A stretch of 64,000 nt of DNA, from positions 1 to 64,000 of the forward strand of contig DWVY01000004.1 in assembly GCA_019119995.1 (NCBI GenBank), given 5' to 3'. Below are positions 38,489 through 49,265 of this stretch, in pieces. Under the pieces are notes generated by a model that did no database searches, had not been told where the DNA came from, and saw nothing but the letters and a program-made list of their open reading frames with translations. A program made the position numbers and the translations under genes. Each line of letters begins with the position of its first letter. The first letter of the stretch is position 1. Origin of the DNA: Candidatus Mediterraneibacter faecavium. GTDB lineage: Bacteria > Bacillota > Clostridia > Lachnospirales > Lachnospiraceae.

Positions 38489-39916
38489 TCAGATCAGATC
38501 ATTCAGCAGGGCTTCTGTTTCCTCGGGCGTATAGAACATGTTGTCATCCAGATTCTCGCAGAAGTCATAAAATGTAAAGAGCAGCCCAGGCTCCTCGATA
38601 TTGAGATAGACCGGCTGCCGGGTATAAGGCGATGAAAACATCAGATACCCGTTCTGCTGATTGACAAACAGATACAGTTCATGCTCCGGATTCCCGATCG
38701 ATTCATTCAGCATCCGGTAGTGTCCGCTCCGGCATGACTGGATCAGCTTCCGGATCGGGCTGATCCTGTCATGCATGTCAAATGGAAGGTATACATCCTG
38801 CGGATACTCGCCGATCCTCCCAGTCTCCAAAAAATGTCTGACGCCGTCGTATGAGAAGATACATGCAGTCTTCCCCTGCTCCTGCCAGACATTCATTTCC
38901 TTGATGTACCCTTGAAAACGATCGATAAAAGCCGGGCGGGACGGCGAGTCGATGGTGATGTATTTTTCAGCCATAGGCAGTGTGATAAACGGCGTGAAGC
39001 AGGGCGTCATCTGAAAACAGTAGCCCGGGCCGCATTCCCGGAGAAGACTCTGGGCATAATCCAACTGCTCCGCGACATTGCTGATCTGCTTGAGCAGGAC
39101 GGTCGACGCCTTGCGGTAATCGGCAAACATATCCGAGAGCATCCTGCGCGAAGCGTCAGAACGCATGACATAGCCTCTGTCCAGTCCGGAAGTCAGCAGG
39201 CATACGCATTCAGACGTGATGATCATGTATGGGAACAGCGTAAGCTTTCCGGTCCTGGATGAGATGTCATCATAATAGTAGAAACATTCATAATGCGGGC
39301 AGCTTCCGTACAGTGGCAGGATCTGCTTCAGACAGTTCAGATTATAGTTTTTCTGCGACTGTGTCGTTTCTGAATTATTGTTCAGACAGATGATATGCTC
39401 GATATGTATTGCCCTGTCAGGCTGGCTTCCTGCGTGGATCAGGTCGATCAGGAAGGATGCGTCAGGCTGGATCAGGAGACGGATGTGTCCGTCTGTCTGC
39501 CGGCTCATTTCCGATGATATCATACGGAAGAGAGCCTGTCTGACTTCAGCAGGAGAAGCGAGCAGTGCGGTCTCCTGACCGCTGCCGGGCTGTTCCGCCC
39601 CATATTTAAATGCAGGAAGAGACGCTGTGGAAAGCGTGAATTCCGAAAAGAAATTCATGACATCCCTGCGCTGGTAGTAGTTATCGTAGCCAGTCAGTGT
39701 GATCTGGTACGCCTCTTCCAGCTCCTGCTCCTCGGCAGGCGACAGATGCATGAACCGCGCCATCTTATGGACCATTTCAAGAGAAGTCGGTTTTCTCTTG
39801 CCGTTTATGATCTTATACATATTCGAGCGGTCAAGACCGCAGTATTGTGCCAGTGCATATGTTTTGATATTTTTTCCGTGAACATGCCTGGAAAGAACAT
39901 ATGAAAATTCCGACAT
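38489..39916 (-). CDS. large XRE-type regulator
   Basis: This 475-residue protein has an N-terminal HTH at residues ~15-65 (IKTYALAQYCGLDRSNMYKI and INGKRKPTSLEMVHKMARFM). The remaining 400 residues form a helical/beta domain I do not recognise. It has no metal or nucleotide motif that I can see and no membrane segment. GGGGG lies upstream of the ATG on the reverse strand. It is divergent from the protease-FHA operon with a 280-base spacer, so it may regulate it. Confidence 0.8.
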   Translation of the reverse strand: MSEFSYVLSRHVHGKNIKTYALAQYCGLDRSNMYKIINGKRKPTSLEMVHKMARFMHLSPAEEQELEEAYQITLTGYDNYYQRRDVMNFFSEFTLSTASLPAFKYGAEQPGSGQETALLASPAEVRQALFRMISSEMSRQTDGHIRLLIQPDASFLIDLIHAGSQPDRAIHIEHIICLNNNSETTQSQKNYNLNCLKQILPLYGSCPHYECFYYYDDISSRTGKLTLFPYMIITSECVCLLTSGLDRGYVMRSDASRRMLSDMFADYRKASTVLLKQISNVAEQLDYAQSLLRECGPGYCFQMTPCFTPFITLPMAEKYITIDSPSRPAFIDRFQGYIKEMNVWQEQGKTACIFSYDGVRHFLETGRIGEYPQDVYLPFDMHDRISPIRKLIQSCRSGHYRMLNESIGNPEHELYLFVNQQNGYLMFSSPYTRQPVYLNIEEPGLLFTFYDFCENLDDNMFYTPEETEALLNDLI

Positions 39917-40150: not shown

Positions 40151-40195
40151 AGACACAGAATGACAAAATATTACATTTTACAGGAGGACTTAAGT

Positions 40196-41833
40196 ATGGG
40201 CAAAAAGTTTATCAAAAAACTGCTGGTACTTATGGCGGCAATGTGCATGGTGATAGGGATGGCCTTACCCGTGCAGGCAGCCGAAGGCGATGAAGCCGGC
40301 ACCGCAGTGACAGCAACGACAGAGGATCCGGCGAACGGTATCCTGCAGGTGATGCTCGCTTATGAGGACGACGGAGGACAGAGGACTTACTTTACAGGAG
40401 GGACCTGTTTCCTGATCAATGAAGAATATGTAGTGACTAACAAGCATATCTTTGATCTCGATGTGGTTGATTCCGCGACAGGGCTTACAACGCGTGAAGT
40501 TATCATGGAGACCCTGGGGCTGGATGAACTGCCGGACAATGATCCGCATCTGAAGCTTTTCGTATTTGCGAACCGCGATACAAATGTGGAGGCGACAGTC
40601 CATGAGAATGCGCAGAGCGACGTGCTTGATTTTGCAGCTCTGCAGCTTTCAGAGAAGATCTACGGAAGACAGCCGCTCGTTCTTGGGGACAGCGATGTGA
40701 TCAAGCAGAGAGATAACGTATATGCGTATGGTTTCCCGGCTGATTCGATCTCCAACAAGAACTTCAATACAAAAGACGATGTGTCGATCTCATCAGGAAT
40801 CGTTTCCAAGGTGACTGTGACTGGAAGCGTAGATATCATCGAACATACGGCACAGCTGAACAATGGAAACTCAGGCGGACCGCTTCTCAATGAAGCAGGC
40901 GAAGTCGTAGGTATCAACGAGTTCATCGTAGACCAGAAGAATTACTCGATCCAGATCAATGCGATCAAAGAGATCCTTGATACATGGGGAATCCCGTATA
41001 CGCCAGGCACAGGCGGAAACAACGGCGGTGGTACAGAGCCGGCAGAACTGACAGTAGAAGATCTTCAGGCCAAGATCGATACGGCAAAGGCACTCAGCCT
41101 TGACGGATACACAGAAGAGAGCGTAAAGGCATTCCAGGATGCTATCGCTGAGGCAGAGAGTGTAGCAGCAGGCAGTCCGGATTCCGCGGCGATCGAGTCA
41201 GCGATCGATGCGCTCTCAGCAGCACAGAGCGGACTGGTGAAAGAAGAAGTGCCTGAGCCAGAACCAGAGCCGGCAGGGCCGAACTGGTTCCTGATCGGCG
41301 GCATCATCGCTATCGTAGTGATCGTGATCGTTGTCGTAGTGATCATCATTGTCGTGGTAAACGGCAATAAGAAGAAAAAAGCAAAACAGGTTCCGCCGGT
41401 ACAGCAGAAAGTGACGCCTCCGGTACAGCAGATACAGCCGAACACACCTCCGGTATCTCCGGTACAGCCGGGCGGATATCCGACAATGCCGCAGGACGAC
41501 GGAGCAGGCGAGACGACACTTCTTGGCGGCGGCATGGGCGGCGCTTACCTGATCCGCAAGAAGAACGGCGAGAAGATCCCGATCACATCACAGAACTTTG
41601 CGATCGGTAAAGAGAGACGAAGAGTCAACTACTGCATCTCCGATAATACATCGGTCAGCAGATACCACGTAGTTATCATGAAGAAGGGCTCTGACTACTA
41701 TGCGGCAGATCAGAAGTCCAGCAACTTCACATTTGTAAACGGCGTACAGCTCAGCCCGTATCAGGAGACGTTGTTGACAGACAGGTCTACGCTCAAGCTT
41801 TCGGATGAAGAGTTTGAATTTCATGTATCATAA
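40196..41833 (+). CDS. surface trypsin-like protease with cytoplasmic FHA domain
   Basis: This is a 545-residue protein. A signal peptide (to about AQAA at 29; LLVLMAAMCMVIGMALPVQA) is followed by an HtrA/trypsin-like domain with catalytic His ~84 (VVTNKHIF), Asp ~145 (VLDFAAL) and Ser ~226 (NNGNSGGPL). Next come a FIVAR-like helical repeat (~285-350), a PEPEPEP linker, one membrane helix (~364-388), a Pro/Gln-rich linker and a C-terminal FHA domain (IGKERRRVNYCISDNTSVSRYH...NGV). The motif GETTLL ahead of the FHA resembles the ETT phospho-site of GarA/OdhI. Topology implies a protease outside and a phosphothreonine reader inside. The operon continues with PP2C and kinase genes. ATG 40196 has AGGAGG. 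Confidence 0.88.
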   Translation: MGKKFIKKLLVLMAAMCMVIGMALPVQAAEGDEAGTAVTATTEDPANGILQVMLAYEDDGGQRTYFTGGTCFLINEEYVVTNKHIFDLDVVDSATGLTTREVIMETLGLDELPDNDPHLKLFVFANRDTNVEATVHENAQSDVLDFAALQLSEKIYGRQPLVLGDSDVIKQRDNVYAYGFPADSISNKNFNTKDDVSISSGIVSKVTVTGSVDIIEHTAQLNNGNSGGPLLNEAGEVVGINEFIVDQKNYSIQINAIKEILDTWGIPYTPGTGGNNGGGTEPAELTVEDLQAKIDTAKALSLDGYTEESVKAFQDAIAEAESVAAGSPDSAAIESAIDALSAAQSGLVKEEVPEPEPEPAGPNWFLIGGIIAIVVIVIVVVVIIIVVVNGNKKKKAKQVPPVQQKVTPPVQQIQPNTPPVSPVQPGGYPTMPQDDGAGETTLLGGGMGGAYLIRKKNGEKIPITSQNFAIGKERRRVNYCISDNTSVSRYHVVIMKKGSDYYAADQKSSNFTFVNGVQLSPYQETLLTDRSTLKLSDEEFEFHVS

Positions 41834-41854
41834 CAGATAAACGGGTGGAAAAAG

Positions 41855-42640
41855 ATGGAATTTCTGAGTGCTGTACATACAGATAAAGGGATAAAAAAGA
41901 ATACAAATCAGGATTCTGTCTTGATCAAAGAGGCGATCACGGACCACGGCAAAGTTTTCTTTGCCGCGGTCTGTGACGGTATGGGCGGTCTCGCGAAAGG
42001 CGAGGTCGCCAGTGCCACTCTGGTCAGGGCTTTTTCAGATTGGTTTGAAAACAGATTTCCGGTGTTCCTGTACGAGAAGAGGACTGCGGACGGGATCGAC
42101 CGGATCGAGATGGAAAATGATCTAAACAGGCTGATACTCGATGTGAATTCGAGAATTTCGGCATACGGGCAGCAGTTTCACGCGGCGCTTGGAACGACGG
42201 CGGCGATGATCCTGTTCGCGGAAGGAAGATATTACATATTAAATATCGGGGACTCCAGAGTCTACAGGCTGAAAGGGCAGACCATCAGCCGGCTGACAAA
42301 GGATCAGACATTTGTACAGAAAGAGATCGATATGGGACGGATGACTCCCGAGGAAGCGAAGACGCATCCGCAGAGAAATGTACTGCTCCAGTGCGTCGGG
42401 GCGAGTGAGGTCATTATCCCGGAATTCGAACACGGGACGTATGGACCGGATGAAGTCTATATGATATGTTCGGACGGATTCCGGCACGTGATCACGGAGG
42501 AAGAATTTGTGAAGCTCATGGCTCCCGGCCAGATAAAAGAAGAGAAAGACTTGCAGAACGCTGCGGTCTATTTTACGGAATTGAATAAATCACGTCAGGA
42601 GAAAGACAACATATCCGTCATTCTTCTGAAGACGTGTTAG
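41855..42640 (+). CDS. PP2C-type Ser/Thr protein phosphatase
   Basis: This 261-residue cytoplasmic enzyme shows the full set of PP2C metal motifs: NQDSVLI, VCDGMGGLAKGE, GTTAAMILF, NIGDSRVYRL, MICSDGF and EKDNISVILL. It should remove phosphate from the proteins modified by the neighbouring kinase, including perhaps the FHA protein. It starts 21 bases after the FHA gene and overlaps the kinase's alternative GTG start. Confidence 0.92.
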   Translation: MEFLSAVHTDKGIKKNTNQDSVLIKEAITDHGKVFFAAVCDGMGGLAKGEVASATLVRAFSDWFENRFPVFLYEKRTADGIDRIEMENDLNRLILDVNSRISAYGQQFHAALGTTAAMILFAEGRYYILNIGDSRVYRLKGQTISRLTKDQTFVQKEIDMGRMTPEEAKTHPQRNVLLQCVGASEVIIPEFEHGTYGPDEVYMICSDGFRHVITEEEFVKLMAPGQIKEEKDLQNAAVYFTELNKSRQEKDNISVILLKTC

Positions 42641-42651
42641 AGGATAAATAT

Positions 42652-43767
42652 ATGCTGGAAATAGGATCAATAATCGACGGTAAATATAAAATCTTGAATA
42701 AGATCGGACAGGGCGGTATGAGCGTCGTCTATCTGGCGATGAATGAGAGAGCCAATAAGCAGTGGGCGATCAAAGAGGTCAGAAAAGACGGCACCAAGGA
42801 CTACGAGGTCGTAAAGCAGGGACTGATCGCAGAGACGGACATCCTGAAGCGCCTCAATCATCCGCATCTTCCGAGTATCATCGATGTGATCGACTGTGAC
42901 GATACATTTCTCATCGTCATGGATTATATCGAGGGAAGGACGCTGGATCACTGGCTCAAGAAAGAGGGGGCGCAGCCTCAGGAGCGAGTGGTGGAATGGG
43001 CGAAGCAGATCTGTGATGTGCTGGGATATCTTCATTCCAGAAAACCGCCCATCATATACAGGGACTTAAAACCTTCAAATGTTATGCTCAAGCCGGACGG
43101 AAAGATCAGGATCATAGATTTTGGTACGGCCCGCGAGTTCAAGGAGCAGAGCATCGAGGATACGAAGTGTCTGGGTACGCAGGGCTACGCCGCACCGGAG
43201 CAGTACGGCGGGCACGGACAGACGGACGCAAGGACGGATATCTACAATCTGGGCGCTACGATGTATCACTTACTGACCGGGCATAACCCCAGTCTCCCGC
43301 CCTATGAGATGTATCCGATCCGCCAGTGGAATCCGTCGCTTTCGTCCGGACTCGAGGCGATCGTTACAAAATGTACGCAGCGGAACCCGAACGACAGATA
43401 TCAGTCCTGCGCGGAGCTGATGTATGCGTTGGAGCATTACGACGAGCTGGATATCGAATACAGGAAACAGCAGAAACGCAAATGGGGGGCGTTCCTCGCG
43501 GCATGTTCTCTGACGGCGGTATCGCTGATCGGGTGTCTCGGCTTCAAATTCGCAGAGAATTCGACGATAAAGAACAGTTACGACGGTTATCTCAGGGCAG
43601 CGTCCAACGCCGCCACGCAGGAAGAAAAAGTGGATTATTACCGGGATGCGATCAATCTCGACCCGTCCAGAGGAGATGCATGGCTGAGTCTCCTAGATGT
43701 GTTCATCGATGGAACGGGAACCGGGGACGGCGGTCTCTTTACACAGGTAGTGTCAAATAAGTTATGA
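42652..43767 (+). pseudogene. membrane Ser/Thr protein kinase truncated by an IS
   Basis: The kinase domain is complete (residues ~10-275): glycine loop IGQGGMSVVY, Lys in WAIKEVRK, catalytic YRDLKPSNVML, IIDFGTARE and APEQYGG. A membrane helix follows (WGAFLAACSLTAVSLIGCLGF, ~285-305) and then the start of an extracellular helical part. At 43746 the IS begins, so the last residues VVSNKL come from IS sequence and the rest of the sensor domain is gone. No trace of it lies beyond the IS. ATG 42652 has AGAGGAT. GTG 42634 is possible. The catalytic part may still be made and active, lacking its input domain. Confidence 0.85.
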
Positions 43768-43843
43768 AAAAATGAAGCCTAAAAAATAGGCTCAGATTGA
43801 ACCTTGAAAATCGCAGATATGATGTTTAATGGCAGCTTACGCC

Positions 43844-43967
43844 ACCCTTGACAGCACACAAAAGCAATGCTCTGAACGCCTTATCGACGGCGAAGAACTC
43901 AGGAACAGGCTGGTTTCTCCGTCTGGGTCACAGCATTGTAGCATTGCTTTTATGTGCCATCAAGGGT
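43844..43967. repeat. long imperfect inverted repeat inside the IS
   Basis: Arms of 28 bases, 43844-43871 and 43940-43967 (AAAGCAATGCT / AGCATTGCTTTT core, outer ACCCTTGA / TCAAGGGT), separated by 68 bases. It lies beyond the transposase stop, so it could act as a terminator-like barrier or as a subterminal transposase site. Confidence 0.7.
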
Positions 43968-44010
43968 AAATCCCTCCGGGATGGCTGAGTTGTTATCTCC
44001 GGCTCTGAAT

Positions 44011-45480
44011 CTAGGAACAGACTTCGCTTCCTGCCTGAGACTTTTGCATCTGAAGGATCGTCTGCTGGCCCAGGAAGATGAGCAGCTGCCACTTGCCGGG
44101 CATGTTGTCAGCATTTTCCAGATGTTCTACTTTATTGAGAACACGATAGCTGTTGTGCTGATGTGGCCTGAGGAAGTTATAATAAGCGACCCAGAGGGCA
44201 ACATTGTAGTTGGCACCTTCATAGTTGTCATAGCCGCAGGTGATGCGGTAGGAGGCTTTAAACGTACGGTTGAGACGCTCGATCATCTGTTTGAAAGGGC
44301 GGAACTCCTTGGAGACTTCGTCCTCGTTAGTAAGCCCGATGACCTGGGTGATATCAAAACGGAACTTCTCACCGAATTGATGGAAGAACTGCTGTGCTGC
44401 GAGAGGATAGGCGCTGTACCCATCGGCAATAAAGCGGAAGTTTTCCGGCAGTTCTTTCAACTTGCGGAAAGCCATGCGCATGGCAAGTATACAGGGACCG
44501 ACACTCCGGTTGTCAGAGACCTGATAGCCAAGGATCGAACGGGATACCGCATCCATGATGAACCAGATGTATCCTTTGACCCCGCGGACTTTGATGTAAG
44601 TTTCATCGGCAACGAAGGTGGTTCCGCTTTTATAGTCATAGTTGTCAACGAAAGGCTTGATGACAAGGGCGGCAGTCCTGGCATAGTTGGCAACCTGCTG
44701 GTGGGAGATCCGGATGTTGTAAAGATCTTTGAGAGCCTCAGAGGTCTTGCGCAGGGAGAGTCCGAGATTGACATGGAAAGTCAGGCAGAGCCCCATGACA
44801 TGGGCGTTGTGGCGGCTGAATTTCAACGAAGAAGCATTCTTTGGAAGGGAGTTTAGATCCATGCGGAAGAAATCCACAGTGAATTCACGGTAGATATAAT
44901 GGAGTTTGTATTTATTTTTGCCATATGCCTCCTTGAGATGTTCAGGATCCACTTTTTTAAGGTTGTGGAGATAGTAAGAGCATTTCGGGTTTACACACTT
45001 ATGCAGGATAAAAAATTTCCGGTCCTTTTTGGGGACGAGAGCGTTCCCGCAGTGGGGACAGCGCAGCTTCATGGAGGAGAAACGGTTATCCTGCTGTGAG
45101 AACTTTGCGTCACAGACCTTGCAGGAGAGCTGTCCTTTGGATCCGTTGTTCTTGTAAAGATAGGGCTTTGGAGCCTGACAGCGGGGGCAGGTACAGTCAT
45201 CGGGGATGTCACATTCGGAACGACGGCTGATGGGACGGATCTTCTTTTTGTAACGTTTTTCAAAGTAAGGGATCAGTTCTATGTAAGTCCAGTCCTGGCG
45301 GAAATCCGTGATCAAAGGAAGTTCATCAATCTTGTACTTCTGGTATTTCGGGGAATGGGAGTCATCAAACGCCCACTGCTTGAGTGGGATATATCTGCAG
45401 ATAAAATTTAATAACCAGCAATTCATCTGATAAAGGTATTGAATGATGGTGAGAAGATAAAGTATAATGTCCATGAGCAT
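44011..45480 (-). CDS. IS transposase, DDE_Tnp_IS240-like
   Basis: This 489-residue protein has two zinc-ribbon motifs in the N-terminal half (CTCPRCQAPKPYLY...CKVC and LRCPHCGNAL...CVNPKC), then a helical DNA-binding region, then a DDE core: Asp in FVADETYIKV, Asp in FIADGYSAYP and Glu in QMIERLNRTFK. AGGAG precedes the start on the reverse strand. Met 45474 has better spacing than Met 45480. It is larger than ordinary IS6 transposases because of the zinc-ribbon part. Family beyond this level is uncertain. It appears complete, so the element may still move. Confidence 0.85.
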   Translation of the reverse strand: MLMDIILYLLTIIQYLYQMNCWLLNFICRYIPLKQWAFDDSHSPKYQKYKIDELPLITDFRQDWTYIELIPYFEKRYKKKIRPISRRSECDIPDDCTCPRCQAPKPYLYKNNGSKGQLSCKVCDAKFSQQDNRFSSMKLRCPHCGNALVPKKDRKFFILHKCVNPKCSYYLHNLKKVDPEHLKEAYGKNKYKLHYIYREFTVDFFRMDLNSLPKNASSLKFSRHNAHVMGLCLTFHVNLGLSLRKTSEALKDLYNIRISHQQVANYARTAALVIKPFVDNYDYKSGTTFVADETYIKVRGVKGYIWFIMDAVSRSILGYQVSDNRSVGPCILAMRMAFRKLKELPENFRFIADGYSAYPLAAQQFFHQFGEKFRFDITQVIGLTNEDEVSKEFRPFKQMIERLNRTFKASYRITCGYDNYEGANYNVALWVAYYNFLRPHQHNSYRVLNKVEHLENADNMPGKWQLLIFLGQQTILQMQKSQAGSEVCS

Positions 45481-45645
45481 TGGCTCCTTTCGGGGATGTT
45501 GGTTTGGCGATTGACATTATACCAGAAAAGGGAGGTCAATGCTCTTTTTATTTGCAAACCTCCGAAAATCAAGGTAAAACGTAACTTTTACAATAAAAAA
45601 AGATGTAGTTTTGACACTACCTTTCAGAAAAGGAAGGAAAAATCA

Positions 45646-47316
45646 ATGGATAAAAAATGGTGGAAAGAAAGCGTAGTATATCAGATCTATCCGAGAAGTT
45701 TTAAAGACAGTAACGGGGACGGGATCGGCGATCTGAACGGCATCACGGAGAAGCTGGATTACCTGAAAGAACTGGGGATCGACGTGATCTGGCTCTCCCC
45801 GGTCTACCAGTCGCCCAACGACGACAACGGCTACGACATCAGCGATTACTGCGCGATCATGAAAGAGTTCGGTACAATGGATGACTACGACAGGATGCTC
45901 GCGGAAGCGCATAAGCGGGGCATCCGTATCGTCATGGATCTTGTGGTAAACCACACTTCGGACGAACATAAATGGTTTATCGAGAGCCGCAGCTCAAAGG
46001 AGAATCCGTACAGGGATTACTATATCTGGCGCCCTGCCAAAGACGGAAAGGAACCGAACAACTGGGGCTCCTGCTTCTCAGGCTCCGCATGGGAATATGA
46101 CAGCACGACCGATATGTATTATCTTCACCTCTTCTCGAAAAAGCAGCCGGATCTGAACTGGGATAACCCGAAGGTGAGAAGAGAAGTATTCGACATGATG
46201 AACTGGTGGCTGGACAAGGGCGTGGACGGATTCCGCATGGATGTGATCAGTCTTATCTCCAAGGATCAGACATTTCCGGACGGAGCGCCGGGCATCAACG
46301 GCTACGCAAGCTTCAACGAGCCCGCCAACGGCCCCCATGTCCACGAATATCTTCAGGAGATGCGAAGAGAAGTGCTGGACGGCAGGGATACCCTCACCGT
46401 AGGAGAGTGTTCCGGCGTCACGCTGGAAGAGGCAAAAAAATATGCCCGGAGCGACGGGAAAGAACTGAATATGGTATTCCAGTTCGAACACATGGATGTG
46501 GACGCCGACGGCTCGAATAAATGGTCGGATAAGAAGATGGATCTGCGCGACCTGAAATCAATCCTGACAAAATGGCAGAAAGGACTTGATACCATCGCGT
46601 GGAACAGCCTGTTCTGGGAGAATCACGATCAGCCCCGCTCTGTCTCAAGATTCGGTGACGACGGCGAGTACCGGGAACTGTCCGCCAAAATGCTGGCTAC
46701 CTGTCTCCATATGATGCAGGGGACTCCGTATGTCTATCAGGGCGAGGAGCTCGGCATGACAAATGTTCCGTTCAAAAATATCTCCGACTTCCGCGACCTT
46801 GACAGTATCAACGCTTATCACGAACTGGTCGGACAGGGCGTGTTCACAGAAGAAGAAATGATGAAATACCTGCGGTATAAAAGCCGGGATAACGCCCGCA
46901 CGCCGTTCCAGTGGGATGATACGGAAAATGCAGGCTTTACGACAGGAACACCGTGGATCATGGTGAATCCGAACTACAAAGAGATCAACGCCAAAGACCA
47001 GATGGAAAGAGCGGACTCCGTCTTCCATTATTACCAGAAGCTGATCTGGCTCAGAAAAGAGCATGAGATCATCGTGTACGGAAGTTATGACCTGCTCCTG
47101 CCGGATGATAAAGAACTGTATGTATACACACGTACACTCGGAAGCGAGAAACTGCTCGTTGTGTGCAATTTCTATGGAAATACACGGCCAATGGAACTTC
47201 CGGAAGGATGGACGCAGGAAGGCGCGGAGCTTCTGATCGGAAATTACGGCGATATCTCCTGCAGAGAGAATACGGTAACGGTGCGGCCCTATGAGGCATT
47301 TGTCCTTAAAATATAA
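45646..47316 (+). CDS. oligo-1,6-glucosidase, GH13_31 subfamily
   Basis: This 556-residue cytoplasmic enzyme has the nucleophile Asp in GFRMDVIS, the acid Glu in TVGECSGV and the third Asp in WENHDQPRSVSRFG. The Val after the nucleophile is the residue associated with alpha-1,6 activity in this subfamily, in contrast to Ala in the paralogue at 23575-25248. AAGGAAGG precedes ATG 45646. The IS end lies just 25 bases upstream, so the natural promoter has probably been displaced. It would hydrolyse isomaltose or similar glucans. Confidence 0.92.
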   Translation: MDKKWWKESVVYQIYPRSFKDSNGDGIGDLNGITEKLDYLKELGIDVIWLSPVYQSPNDDNGYDISDYCAIMKEFGTMDDYDRMLAEAHKRGIRIVMDLVVNHTSDEHKWFIESRSSKENPYRDYYIWRPAKDGKEPNNWGSCFSGSAWEYDSTTDMYYLHLFSKKQPDLNWDNPKVRREVFDMMNWWLDKGVDGFRMDVISLISKDQTFPDGAPGINGYASFNEPANGPHVHEYLQEMRREVLDGRDTLTVGECSGVTLEEAKKYARSDGKELNMVFQFEHMDVDADGSNKWSDKKMDLRDLKSILTKWQKGLDTIAWNSLFWENHDQPRSVSRFGDDGEYRELSAKMLATCLHMMQGTPYVYQGEELGMTNVPFKNISDFRDLDSINAYHELVGQGVFTEEEMMKYLRYKSRDNARTPFQWDDTENAGFTTGTPWIMVNPNYKEINAKDQMERADSVFHYYQKLIWLRKEHEIIVYGSYDLLLPDDKELYVYTRTLGSEKLLVVCNFYGNTRPMELPEGWTQEGAELLIGNYGDISCRENTVTVRPYEAFVLKI

Positions 47317-47399
47317 TAGTTTTATTTGTCATAAGCGGCTGATTCGTGTATACTTACACAGGATACTTCCGTAAAAAGCAGCAGAGAACAGGAGGAGCA

Positions 47400-49265
47400 A
47401 TGCGTAAATTAGCCTTAAGTGATGAAATATTATTAAGCATAGAAAAGCCCGCCCGATACATCGGAGGCGAGGTCAATTCTGTAATGAAGGACCAAGATGA
47501 AGTGGACATCCGCTTTGCTATGTGTTTTCCGGACGTCTACGAGATCGGCATGTCCCATCTGGGCATCCAGATCCTCTACGACATGTTCAACCGCAGGGAG
47601 GACACATGGTGCGAACGTGTCTACTCGCCATGGCTTGATATGGACAAGGTCCTGAGAGAAAAGGATATCCCGCTCTTTGCGCTGGAATCCCAGGATCCGG
47701 TGCGGGATTTCGATTTTCTCGGCATTACGATCCAGTTCGAGATGTGCTATACCAATATCCTGCAGATCCTCGACTTAAGCCACATCCCGCTCCATGCGTC
47801 TGACCGGACAGAAGAGGATCCTATCGTGATCGGCGGCGGACCGTGCGCGTACAATCCGGAGCCGCTGGCAGAGTTCTTTGATATCTTCTATATCGGAGAG
47901 GGTGAGACGGTTTACGATGAGCTTCTCGACACATATAAGGAATGGAAGAAGTCCGGCGCATCAAGGAAGGAGTTCCTGCGCCAGGCAGCCCGGATCGAGG
48001 GGCTCTATGTACCGCAGTTTTATGATGTGACATACAACGAAGACGGCACGATCGGATCCTTTGTTCCCAACGATCCCGCGGCTCCTGCGAAAGTGAGGAA
48101 GCAGGTAGTCATGGATGTGACCGATGCTTCTTATCCGATGAAGCCGGTCGTTCCCTATATCAAAGCCACGCAGGACAGAGTCGTGCTTGAGATCCAGAGG
48201 GGATGTATCCGCGGCTGCCGTTTCTGTCAGGCGGGGATGATCTACCGTCCGACCAGAGAGCGCAGTGTGGAGACGCTGAAAGAATACGCGCGTACAATGC
48301 TCAAGAACACGGGGCATGAAGAGATATCCTTAAGTTCTTTAAGCTCCAGCGACTATTCGAAACTGAACGAGCTTGTCACCTTCCTGATCGACGAGTTCAA
48401 GGACAAAGGGATCAACATTTCGCTCCCGTCCCTGCGCATCGACGCATTCTCCCTTGACGTCATGAGCAAGGTGCAGGATGTAAGGAAGAGCAGTCTCACA
48501 TTTGCCCCCGAGGCAGGCTCCCAGCGGATGCGCGATGTGATCAACAAGGGACTTACAGAAGAGGAGATCATAACCGGCGCAGGACAGGCTTTCGAGGGCG
48601 GCTGGACGAAAGTGAAGCTCTATTTCATGCTGGGGCTTCCGACCGAGACGGAAGAAGATATGAAAGAGATCGCCCGGCTTTCCGACCGGGTGGCGCGCAG
48701 GTATTACGAGATCCCGAAGGAGCAGCGGCACGGGAAATGCCAGATCACGGCAAGTTCTTCGTTCTTTGTACCGAAGCCGTTCACGCCGTTCCAGTGGGCA
48801 TCCATGTATACAGCAGAAGAGTACGACCGCAGAGCGCACATCGTAAATGATGAATTCCGCGGACAGCTCAACCGCAAGAGCCTGAAATACAACTGGCACG
48901 ACGCGCAGGTGACTGTTCTTGAAGGCGTCATGGCAAGAGGCGACCGCAGGATCGCGCCTGTGATCGAAGAAGCGTACCGTCTGGGCTGTCTCTTTGACTC
49001 GTGGACAGAGACATTCCGCAATGATCTCTGGATGGAGGCATTTGAGAATACAAATGTGGATATCTCTTTCTACAATCAGCGTGTGCGTGGAAAAGATGAG
49101 ATCTTCCCATGGGATTTTATCGATATCGGTGTGAGCCGCTCTTTCCTCTATCGGGAGTGGGAGCGTGCAATGAATGAGACTGTGACTCCAAACTGCCGGG
49201 AGAAATGTTCCGGCTGCGGGGCAGCAGGTTTCGGAGGAGGTGTCTGCTATGAAGGCAAGAATTAA
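47400..49265 (+). CDS. B12-binding-type radical SAM protein, TIGR03960 family
   Basis: This 621-residue protein has an N-terminal B12-binding-like region (~20-200; FAMCFPDVYEIGMSHLGIQI) followed by a radical SAM core with the cluster motif RGCIRGCRFCQAG (C-x3-C-x2-C) near residue 280, and a Cys-rich tail (CREKCSGCGAAGFGGGVC). GGAGGAG precedes ATG 47400. In Clostridia it forms a fixed set with the next gene, RNase G and L21, suggesting a role in RNA or ribosome modification. Substrate not established. It overlaps the next gene by 17 bases. Confidence 0.9.
   Translation: MRKLALSDEILLSIEKPARYIGGEVNSVMKDQDEVDIRFAMCFPDVYEIGMSHLGIQILYDMFNRREDTWCERVYSPWLDMDKVLREKDIPLFALESQDPVRDFDFLGITIQFEMCYTNILQILDLSHIPLHASDRTEEDPIVIGGGPCAYNPEPLAEFFDIFYIGEGETVYDELLDTYKEWKKSGASRKEFLRQAARIEGLYVPQFYDVTYNEDGTIGSFVPNDPAAPAKVRKQVVMDVTDASYPMKPVVPYIKATQDRVVLEIQRGCIRGCRFCQAGMIYRPTRERSVETLKEYARTMLKNTGHEEISLSSLSSSDYSKLNELVTFLIDEFKDKGINISLPSLRIDAFSLDVMSKVQDVRKSSLTFAPEAGSQRMRDVINKGLTEEEIITGAGQAFEGGWTKVKLYFMLGLPTETEEDMKEIARLSDRVARRYYEIPKEQRHGKCQITASSSFFVPKPFTPFQWASMYTAEEYDRRAHIVNDEFRGQLNRKSLKYNWHDAQVTVLEGVMARGDRRIAPVIEEAYRLGCLFDSWTETFRNDLWMEAFENTNVDISFYNQRVRGKDEIFPWDFIDIGVSRSFLYREWERAMNETVTPNCREKCSGCGAAGFGGGVCYEGKN

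Follow-up and report, generated by a model that had tools for sequence, protein, structure and literature searches.

FHA domains prefer phosphothreonine (pThr) over phosphoserine and read the residue at position +3. The threonine-phosphorylation pathway of the type VI secretion system (T6SS) employs the components PpkA, PppA and Fha, and the switch threonine of OdhI and GarA lies in an ETT context. Here we analyse an operon on a stretch of 64,000 nucleotides (the window) from Candidatus Mediterraneibacter faecavium, positions 1 to 64,000 of contig DWVY01000004.1. It encodes a membrane protein that joins an exported trypsin-like domain to an FHA domain (trypsin-FHA protein), a PP2C-type phosphatase and a membrane serine/threonine kinase. 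Judging from gene content in relatives and from a conserved motif, E-T-x-[V/L]-L, we consider it rather probable that the operon forms the regulatory front section of a type VII secretion system (T7SS) locus resembling subtype T7SSe, and with it that the pThr switch set out below operates there.

According to the subtype sections and discussion of Garrett, Higginson and Palmer (2024; PMC11217815), T7SSe comprises TseA, TseA2, TseB, TseC, the kinase TseD, the phosphatase TseF, TseH, the giant Ig-like protein TseI, the DUF6382-FHA protein TseJ and TseK. Phospho-control of T7SS subtypes and a parallel to the T6SS are already raised there. Since kinase, phosphatase and FHA protein are described parts of both T7SSe and T7SSj, the composition is not unprecedented, and the claim of an initial annotation of the window that no such system had been described does not hold. 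The loci studied here share with T7SSe, as presented in those sections, a kinase (TseD), a PPM phosphatase (TseF), a giant envelope protein (TseI), a DUF6382-FHA protein (TseJ), YukD (TseB), EssC (TseC), LXG substrates and a protein with a single transmembrane (TM) helix and a short unstructured cytoplasmic part (TseH/K). Unlike the T7SSe of that text, they contain the trypsin-TM-FHA protein, a second kinase, a TPR protein and a TadZ/ParA-like ATPase (TsfV belongs to T7SSf), as well as arrays of the threonine motif, which are absent from the same sections. The word 'trypsin' does not occur in the main text of that paper; 'protease' occurs twice, and the passage at hand concerns mycosin.

Two further systems are alike in their working. 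The T6SS pathway, in the A. tumefaciens case cited in PMC11217815, likewise has a membrane kinase, an FHA protein and phospho-docking on a membrane component; the machine is a different one, and motif arrays and an extracellular protease-like domain are found here. OdhI, as outlined in PMC9769921, and GarA have a phospho-acceptor threonine near the FHA domain together with kinase and phosphatase partners. In contrast to such small cytoplasmic FHA proteins with an N-terminal phospho-Thr switch, the window protein is a 545-residue membrane protein with an exported trypsin domain, and in its family the motif occurs in tandem and also in trans, its first threonine being kept and its second position free. 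The PFNA cluster of Bifidobacterium, which combines a Ser/Thr kinase with an FN3 surface protein and, depending on the species, PP2C and FHA (outlined in PMC8430577), was rejected as the family of this operon, its core AAA-ATPase, DUF58 and transglutaminase proteins not being among the proteins scanned here. Conflict systems treated in part of PMC7159879 hold trypsin-like peptidases, FHA and PP2C domains in other architectures. In the open-licence PMC literature, we found no paper joining a trypsin-like domain, an FHA domain, PP2C and type VII secretion, or joining type VII secretion, Lachnospiraceae, EssC and FHA; a search for ETTVL gave papers unrelated by title. As far as these searches reach, the trypsin-FHA component and the candidate switch motif are new, within a known kind of machine and not as a stand-alone system.

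The operon and its counterpart in relatives

The operon and its divergent neighbour comprise the following features:
40196..41833, plus strand: trypsin-TM-FHA protein, 545 residues, with signal peptide, HtrA-like S1 domain, FIVAR-like helices, TM helix, linker and FHA domain (Pfam)
41507..41524, plus strand: GETTLL, a T-x-[VL]-L motif ahead of the FHA domain, single copy in the window
41855..42640, plus strand: PP2C/PPM phosphatase, 261 residues, TseF-like (PP2C_2, PF13672, 2.1e-12)
42634..43749, plus strand: membrane Ser/Thr kinase, TseD-like, truncated (Pkinase, PF00069, 6.9e-51; likely start ATG 42652)
38489..39916, minus strand, divergent: XRE-type regulator, 475 residues (HTH_26, 1.8e-5, above its cut-off)

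A Pfam scan of the first product gave Trypsin_2 (PF13365) at 1e-22 and FHA (PF00498) at 9.4e-11. The full catalytic triad, which had been read from the sequence, is borne out by alignment: H96, D157 and S238 line up with the relatives' H-D-S (residues are counted from the ATG at 40160, although translation more likely begins at the ATG at 40196). The FIVAR-like repeat that had also been proposed does give a match, albeit a sub-threshold one (25.7 versus 29.2 bits). As a single hydrophobic helix stands before a KKKKAK stretch, the trypsin and FIVAR-like parts would lie outside and the FHA domain in the cytoplasm, in agreement with the topology first suggested. In profile comparison with solved structures the S1 domain resembles HtrA/DegP proteases, its best PDB matches being HtrA chains (1l1j, 5.7e-19). 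Unlike these, the protein gave no PDZ match in Pfam up to E 0.1 and has a TM helix and an FHA domain instead; its score with HtrA models is far under the cut-off (48.9 versus 416 bits), and the triad is lost in its sister proteins. The phosphatase scores 170.9 bits with NF033484, under the cut-off of 230. Ratios of nonsynonymous to synonymous substitution rates (dN/dS) against loci L034-L036 were 0.03-0.13 for the trypsin-FHA gene (the L036 value with saturated dS) and 0.02-0.13 in seven of nine gene pairs with estimable dS, one of them saturated. These low values indicate that the window genes have been under purifying selection in their lineage. (Loci are numbered L, genomes G, and G000 is the window's genome.)

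The regulator, correctly recognised as a divergent XRE protein from the start, has about 400 residues without Pfam match. By phmmer its homologues adjoin trypsin-FHA in 7 of 14 loci of the window's own group (group 1, see below), divergently in the window, L034, L035, L036 and L040 and on the same strand in L043 and L135. In L058 a further homologue is encoded at the distal end of the T7SS locus.

An intact locus is found in the nearest relative, G300. There the order is trypsin-FHA, PP2C, kinase, single-TM protein, 4-TM protein, giant protein, second kinase, TPR protein, an FHA protein with weak DUF6382, ParA/TadZ-like ATPase, YukD and EssC, followed by a 104-residue open reading frame (ORF), DUF4176, YwqH-like, DUF5344-like and LXG proteins. 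YukD (4e-10), LXG (1.5e-23) and FHA (9.4e-16) score clearly, and DUF6382 falls below threshold (21.3 versus 26.7 bits). The EssC has 1507 residues (L080). The giant protein of G300 was assigned by phmmer similarity; Pfam finds Ig-like domains in the giants of L037, L044 and L058, and none in the scanned part of the L034 giant. For the two WXG100 proteins of T7SSe, TseA and TseA2, possible counterparts are the 104-residue ORF, which has no Pfam match, and the YwqH-like protein of 171 residues; L051 has a sub-threshold WXG100 match. G755 shows a similar layout of about 30 kb (L135, L136), with counterparts of TseB, TseD, TseF, TseI and TseJ all present by similarity in L135, and the same front part is linked to an EssC in G210, G148, G058, G188, G227 and G719. 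Altogether, 8 of the 14 group-1 loci share their contig with an EssC; that of G000 is on contig C54. The linkage of phosphatase, kinase and FHA protein proposed by the initial annotation is real. The gene order of relatives, however, speaks for a T7SSe-like locus that begins with these genes, and against a stand-alone signalling system.

Trypsin-FHA proteins and a conserved threonine motif

Among 397 sampled genomes of the family, at least 20 have a protein matching both profile halves (E <= 1e-20, among the matches listed), some of which cover both domains partially (G102, G129). In a class-wide sample of 391, the matches listed place both-half proteins in six genomes of this family and, in a different family, in G565; the sampled congener G691 gave no match at E <= 1e-20 among those listed. 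A kinase lies within 1.1 kb of trypsin-FHA in 15 of the 19 assessable genomes among these at least 20, G202 being left out (4.5 kb contig) and none being that near in G207, G143, G070 and G129. We collected 40 trypsin-FHA proteins and sorted them by hand on triad and motif:
Group 1 (14 proteins; window, L034-L044, L134, L135): H-D-S triad, linker motif, PP2C and kinase adjoining
Group 2 (10 proteins; L047, L049, L051, two in L052, L128, L129, L130, L138, L139): motif, no triad
Group 3 (4 proteins; L045, L050, L087, L090): no triad and no tandem motif, one motif copy in L050
Group 4 (12 proteins): no motif; 11 with intact triad, 10 with kinase or phosphatase genes among those fetched around them

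In all 14 group-1 loci the order is trypsin-FHA, PP2C (0-44 bp apart), kinase, so that the suggested co-occurrence of the three genes is confirmed for this group. Group 2 has EssC near in seven of ten cases and a kinase within 1 kb in four. In two of its members, from L051 (8483-9970) and L138 (9567-11186), His-Asp-Cys replaces His-Asp-Ser, and these proteins are possibly cysteine proteases of the S1 fold. A tree computed without the linker sets group 4 apart (100/99), joins the other 28 proteins (100/99) and supports group 1 as one clade (83/91), and group 2 weakly so (65/62).

The GETTLL site noticed ahead of the window's FHA domain belongs to a motif, E-T-x-[V/L]-L, that occurs in the linkers of 25 of the 40 proteins: in 14/14 of group 1 and 10/10 of group 2, counts that for triad and motif alike follow partly from sorting with the motif in view, and in 1/16 of the remainder. 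Conservation of the threonine thus extends over the two groups nearest to the window and not over the rest. Thirteen of the 14 group-1 linkers carry two copies; the window protein has one. All 24 group-1 and group-2 proteins keep S-R-x-H in the FHA domain.

The motif recurs in a second protein. T7SSe has two small single-TM proteins, TseH and TseK; of 24 kinase loci examined, 20 encode one such protein after the kinase, and a 4-TM protein is present as well (a second small one was not sought systematically). The stricter motif, written from the FHA linkers, was afterwards found in 20 of 21 cytoplasmic tails of such single-TM proteins. A relaxed form, [EDGASNQ]T.[VLI][LM], gave 57 copies in the 21 tails versus 2.7 in shuffled sequences and 43 in the 40 linkers versus 1.8, together 100 threonine copies or about 22 times the shuffled expectation; this form was widened once the tails had been seen, a point that counts against our interpretation. 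Serine versions are absent from tails and linkers, versus 2.1 shuffled in each. Across the copies the first threonine is kept and position +3 is occupied by Leu, replaced by Met in 4 of the 57 tail copies. The second position varies, with T, S, M, E, A, D and V among its residues. Tails hold up to six copies, and that of L051 has five at a spacing of seven residues. Two motifs within 30 residues occur in 15 of 20 small-TM proteins versus 4 of 748 controls, which include the duplicates L081_1 and L083_0 and the small-TM protein L138_4; three of those four are again small-TM proteins. Two or more motifs went together with an STK1-type kinase within 4 kb (21/29 versus 5/80, Fisher p about 1e-11, relatedness ignored), in counts that leave out L081, L082 and L083 (overlaps) and L090 (4.5 kb contig). 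As a separate observation, the kinase of L146 (1484-3682, minus strand) has three T-x-V-L motifs in the stretch before its TM helix.

These findings bear on the idea of self-contained surface protease signalling, in which the kinase phosphorylates the ETT site of trypsin-FHA, the FHA domain closes on it and the outer protease is thereby controlled, secretion being a mere neighbour. Such a scheme would account for a threonine ahead of the FHA domain, as in the Thr14 switch of OdhI (described in part of PMC9769921), for an intact triad in 14/14 group-1 proteins, and for the dN/dS of 0.03-0.13 between the window gene and those of L034-L036. It is hard to reconcile with motif arrays in trans, in a separate single-TM protein, with the loss of the triad in 10/10 motif-keeping group-2 proteins (weakly one clade, 65/62), and with an EssC on the same contig in 8/14 group-1 and 7/10 group-2 loci, and we regard it as unlikely. 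Within the 28-member clade the motif is present in 24 proteins, with one copy also in L050, and the triad is intact in the group-1 clade and missing in all 14 sister proteins. Proteolytic activity is therefore a variable trait of the system, and the coupling to surface proteolysis that had been inferred appears weak.

The same loss of catalytic residues with retention of the fold in the 14 sister proteins would also fit a structural translocon part, functionally like the membrane-anchored mycosin of T7SSa, whose FHA domain serves assembly independently of phosphorylation. A precedent is given by the T7SSb EssC FHA domains, which lack phosphate-binding residues and bind the pseudokinase EssB (reported in part of PMC10765036), and five of the seven group-2 loci with EssC near have no kinase in the fetched stretch. 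Conservation of S-R-x-H and of a Thr-only motif fits pThr recognition instead, and an active-looking kinase and PP2C adjoin in 14/14 group-1 loci. We consider a purely structural role rather unlikely.

A third possibility is a general membrane phospho-cassette that is not dedicated to secretion, T7SS linkage being one context of several. In L048 and L132 a motif-bearing DUF6382-FHA protein takes the place of trypsin-FHA, and the series DUF6382-FHA, PP2C, kinase, single-TM protein adjoins a prepilin-peptidase gene in both, with a TadZ-like gene in L048; in G102 (L060) a TraG-like P-loop gene lies downstream. With EssC on the contig in 8/14 group-1 loci, we give this possibility very little weight. 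Since pilus-type and T4SS-like machines, too, are surface machines, these contexts widen rather than contradict the assignment to a secretion-linked switch. The kinase/PP2C/FHA/single-TM cassette was noted for L048, L132 and L046/L060.

The interrupted kinase and the contig join

Downstream of the phosphatase the window departs from its relatives. Two features follow the kinase:
43746..45621, minus strand: insertion sequence (IS) element, 1876 bp, multicopy, with an IS6-like transposase (44011-45480) and ends GGTAGTGTC
45622..49265, plus strand: amylase-like and radical-SAM genes, outside the system, which belong beside contig C27 (TTTCAGAA flank, synteny with G300)

The ORF at 42634-43767 encodes 377 residues versus 574-582 in L034-L036; it breaks after codon 372, the last codons being IS sequence, and beyond position 43750 the DNA is no longer homologous to that of L034 and L035. 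What is left is the kinase domain, a TM helix at about residue 284 and some 70 residues beyond it, from an intact length of about 582. Hence PP2C and membrane kinase do follow in the same operon as originally annotated, whereas the 3' end placed at 43767 was wrong. A kinase with merely a short extracellular part was ruled out, because the IS interrupts the gene. The usual catalytic residues (AIK, YRDLKPSN, DFG, APE) are present, and by these the kinase is predicted to be active. NF033483 covers residues 10-273 only (224.9 versus 450 bits), and the intact L034 kinase gave no match to PASTA repeats, setting it apart from PASTA kinases (PknB/Stk1).

In G000 (2.84 Mb, 90% complete) only residues 1-372 of this kinase were found, besides a distant match of 34%. 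Neither the single-TM nor the giant protein was found in this genome; the same two queries matched 3/3 control relatives, the giant down to 31% identity. The operon copy of the window's genome is thus probably defective.

Five more contigs, C27, C51, C7, C54 and C56, are bounded by an IS end, and a full second copy, 91% identical, is on C47. The 8 bp to the right of the window IS (TTTCAGAA) equal the 8 bp to the left of the IS copy ending C27, and the flank on C27 is 89% identical to the stretch of G300 (L074; G300:C43) that immediately precedes its radical-SAM gene, the gene found at 47346 in the window. We therefore place the window beyond 45.62 kb beside C27, and the kinase-IS-amylase join is most likely an assembly chimera. 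The flanks of the C47 copy match over 3 bp only, versus the 8 bp common to C27 and the window. The amylase-like gene (45439-47316) has no close DNA match adjoining the radical-SAM gene (47346-49265) in the three relatives searched and may have entered G000 at this site, with the C27 genes on one side of it and the radical-SAM gene on the other.

Contig C54 starts at the right end of an IS, immediately followed by YukD and EssC; its identity to G300, 96.65%, sets in precisely at this boundary. The simplest reading would be a true order kinase-IS-YukD-EssC with loss of the intervening stretch, which by coordinate arithmetic amounts to about 14 kb in G300; possibly, two IS copies enclose an unassembled stretch instead. 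For genome reading in general the case is a caution, as a multicopy IS yielded a likely chimeric contig and a false operon 3' end.

A proposed phosphothreonine switch

For the intact loci we propose a kinase/FHA/PP2C switch that docks secretion components on pThr sites, a scheme that we regard as fairly likely on the strength of gene order and motif conservation. The TseD-like membrane kinase, with its extracellular C-terminal domain, would sense something at the surface and phosphorylate the first threonine of the E-T-x-[V/L]-L motifs, in the trypsin-TM-FHA linker as well as in the tail, often an array, of the single-TM protein encoded after it. FHA domains would recognise the phosphorylated threonine together with Leu at +3, and membrane components bearing such domains could thereby dock on the tail or close on their own linker as in GarA/OdhI. 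Docking would gate assembly or firing of the EssC machine, and PP2C would reset the switch. The exported HtrA-like domain is probably a sensor or scaffold, proteolysis being optional. Phosphorylation, binding, the effect on secretion and the role of the protease domain are deduced here from sequence, and as nearest precedents we propose, by analogy, the T6SS threonine-phosphorylation pathway and the Thr14 switch of OdhI.

Several observations weigh against this switch. In group 2, six of the ten proteins carry the motif although no kinase lies within the sequence fetched (L047, L049, L128, L129, L130, L139), PP2C being present in L130 only. No association of the motif appeared when any kinase within 6 kb was counted (28/46 versus 32/63, p = 0.33, with L081, L082, L083 and L090 again left out); only the STK1-type kinase shows one. 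The FHA-protein linkers of L054 and L055 lack the motif despite an adjoining STK1-type kinase, although the single-TM tails of both loci carry it; in L046 it is the single-TM tail in which no motif was found. For four of 24 STK1-type kinases (window, L039, L040, L138), none of the three genes that follow encodes a small single-TM protein. In a held-out class-level set of 20 loci chosen by FHA matches, the full arrangement occurs in one (L144), whose tail has one copy and no array; as most held-out loci have DUF6382-FHA without kinase match, only L144 could test the tail. An AlphaFold2 model of trypsin-FHA from a four-row alignment (window, L034-L036) was unusable, with a predicted local distance difference test score of 39.9, and was set aside. 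Finally, unlike in T7SSe, the N-terminal FHA domains of EssC in the window's lineage (G000 and G300) lack S-R-x-H, the pThr-binding residues of that subtype; other loci have SRYH (L061) or SRNH (L082), and L057-L059 keep S and H only. For this reason, and since the assignment follows gene content and not an EssC tree, we speak of a T7SSe-like locus and not of T7SSe.

More tentatively, with a likelihood that we place somewhat short of even, the motif may be part of a phospho-code of the Lachnospiraceae. Tail arrays phosphorylated by the adjoining kinase would recruit trypsin-FHA and DUF6382-FHA proteins, and their valency would set T7SS assembly; the cassette would serve pilus-type and T4SS-like loci as well, and trypsin-FHA would couple an outer protease-fold sensor to it. 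Kinases, phosphatases and FHA proteins have been known as parts of T7SS variants since 2024, when phospho-control was left open. The motif now names candidate threonines and their partners, and it predicts threonine and not serine, Leu at +3 and a single small membrane protein as the site of multivalent docking. The operon adds a new component to these variants, a membrane protease-fold/FHA protein that recalls the mycosin of T7SSa.

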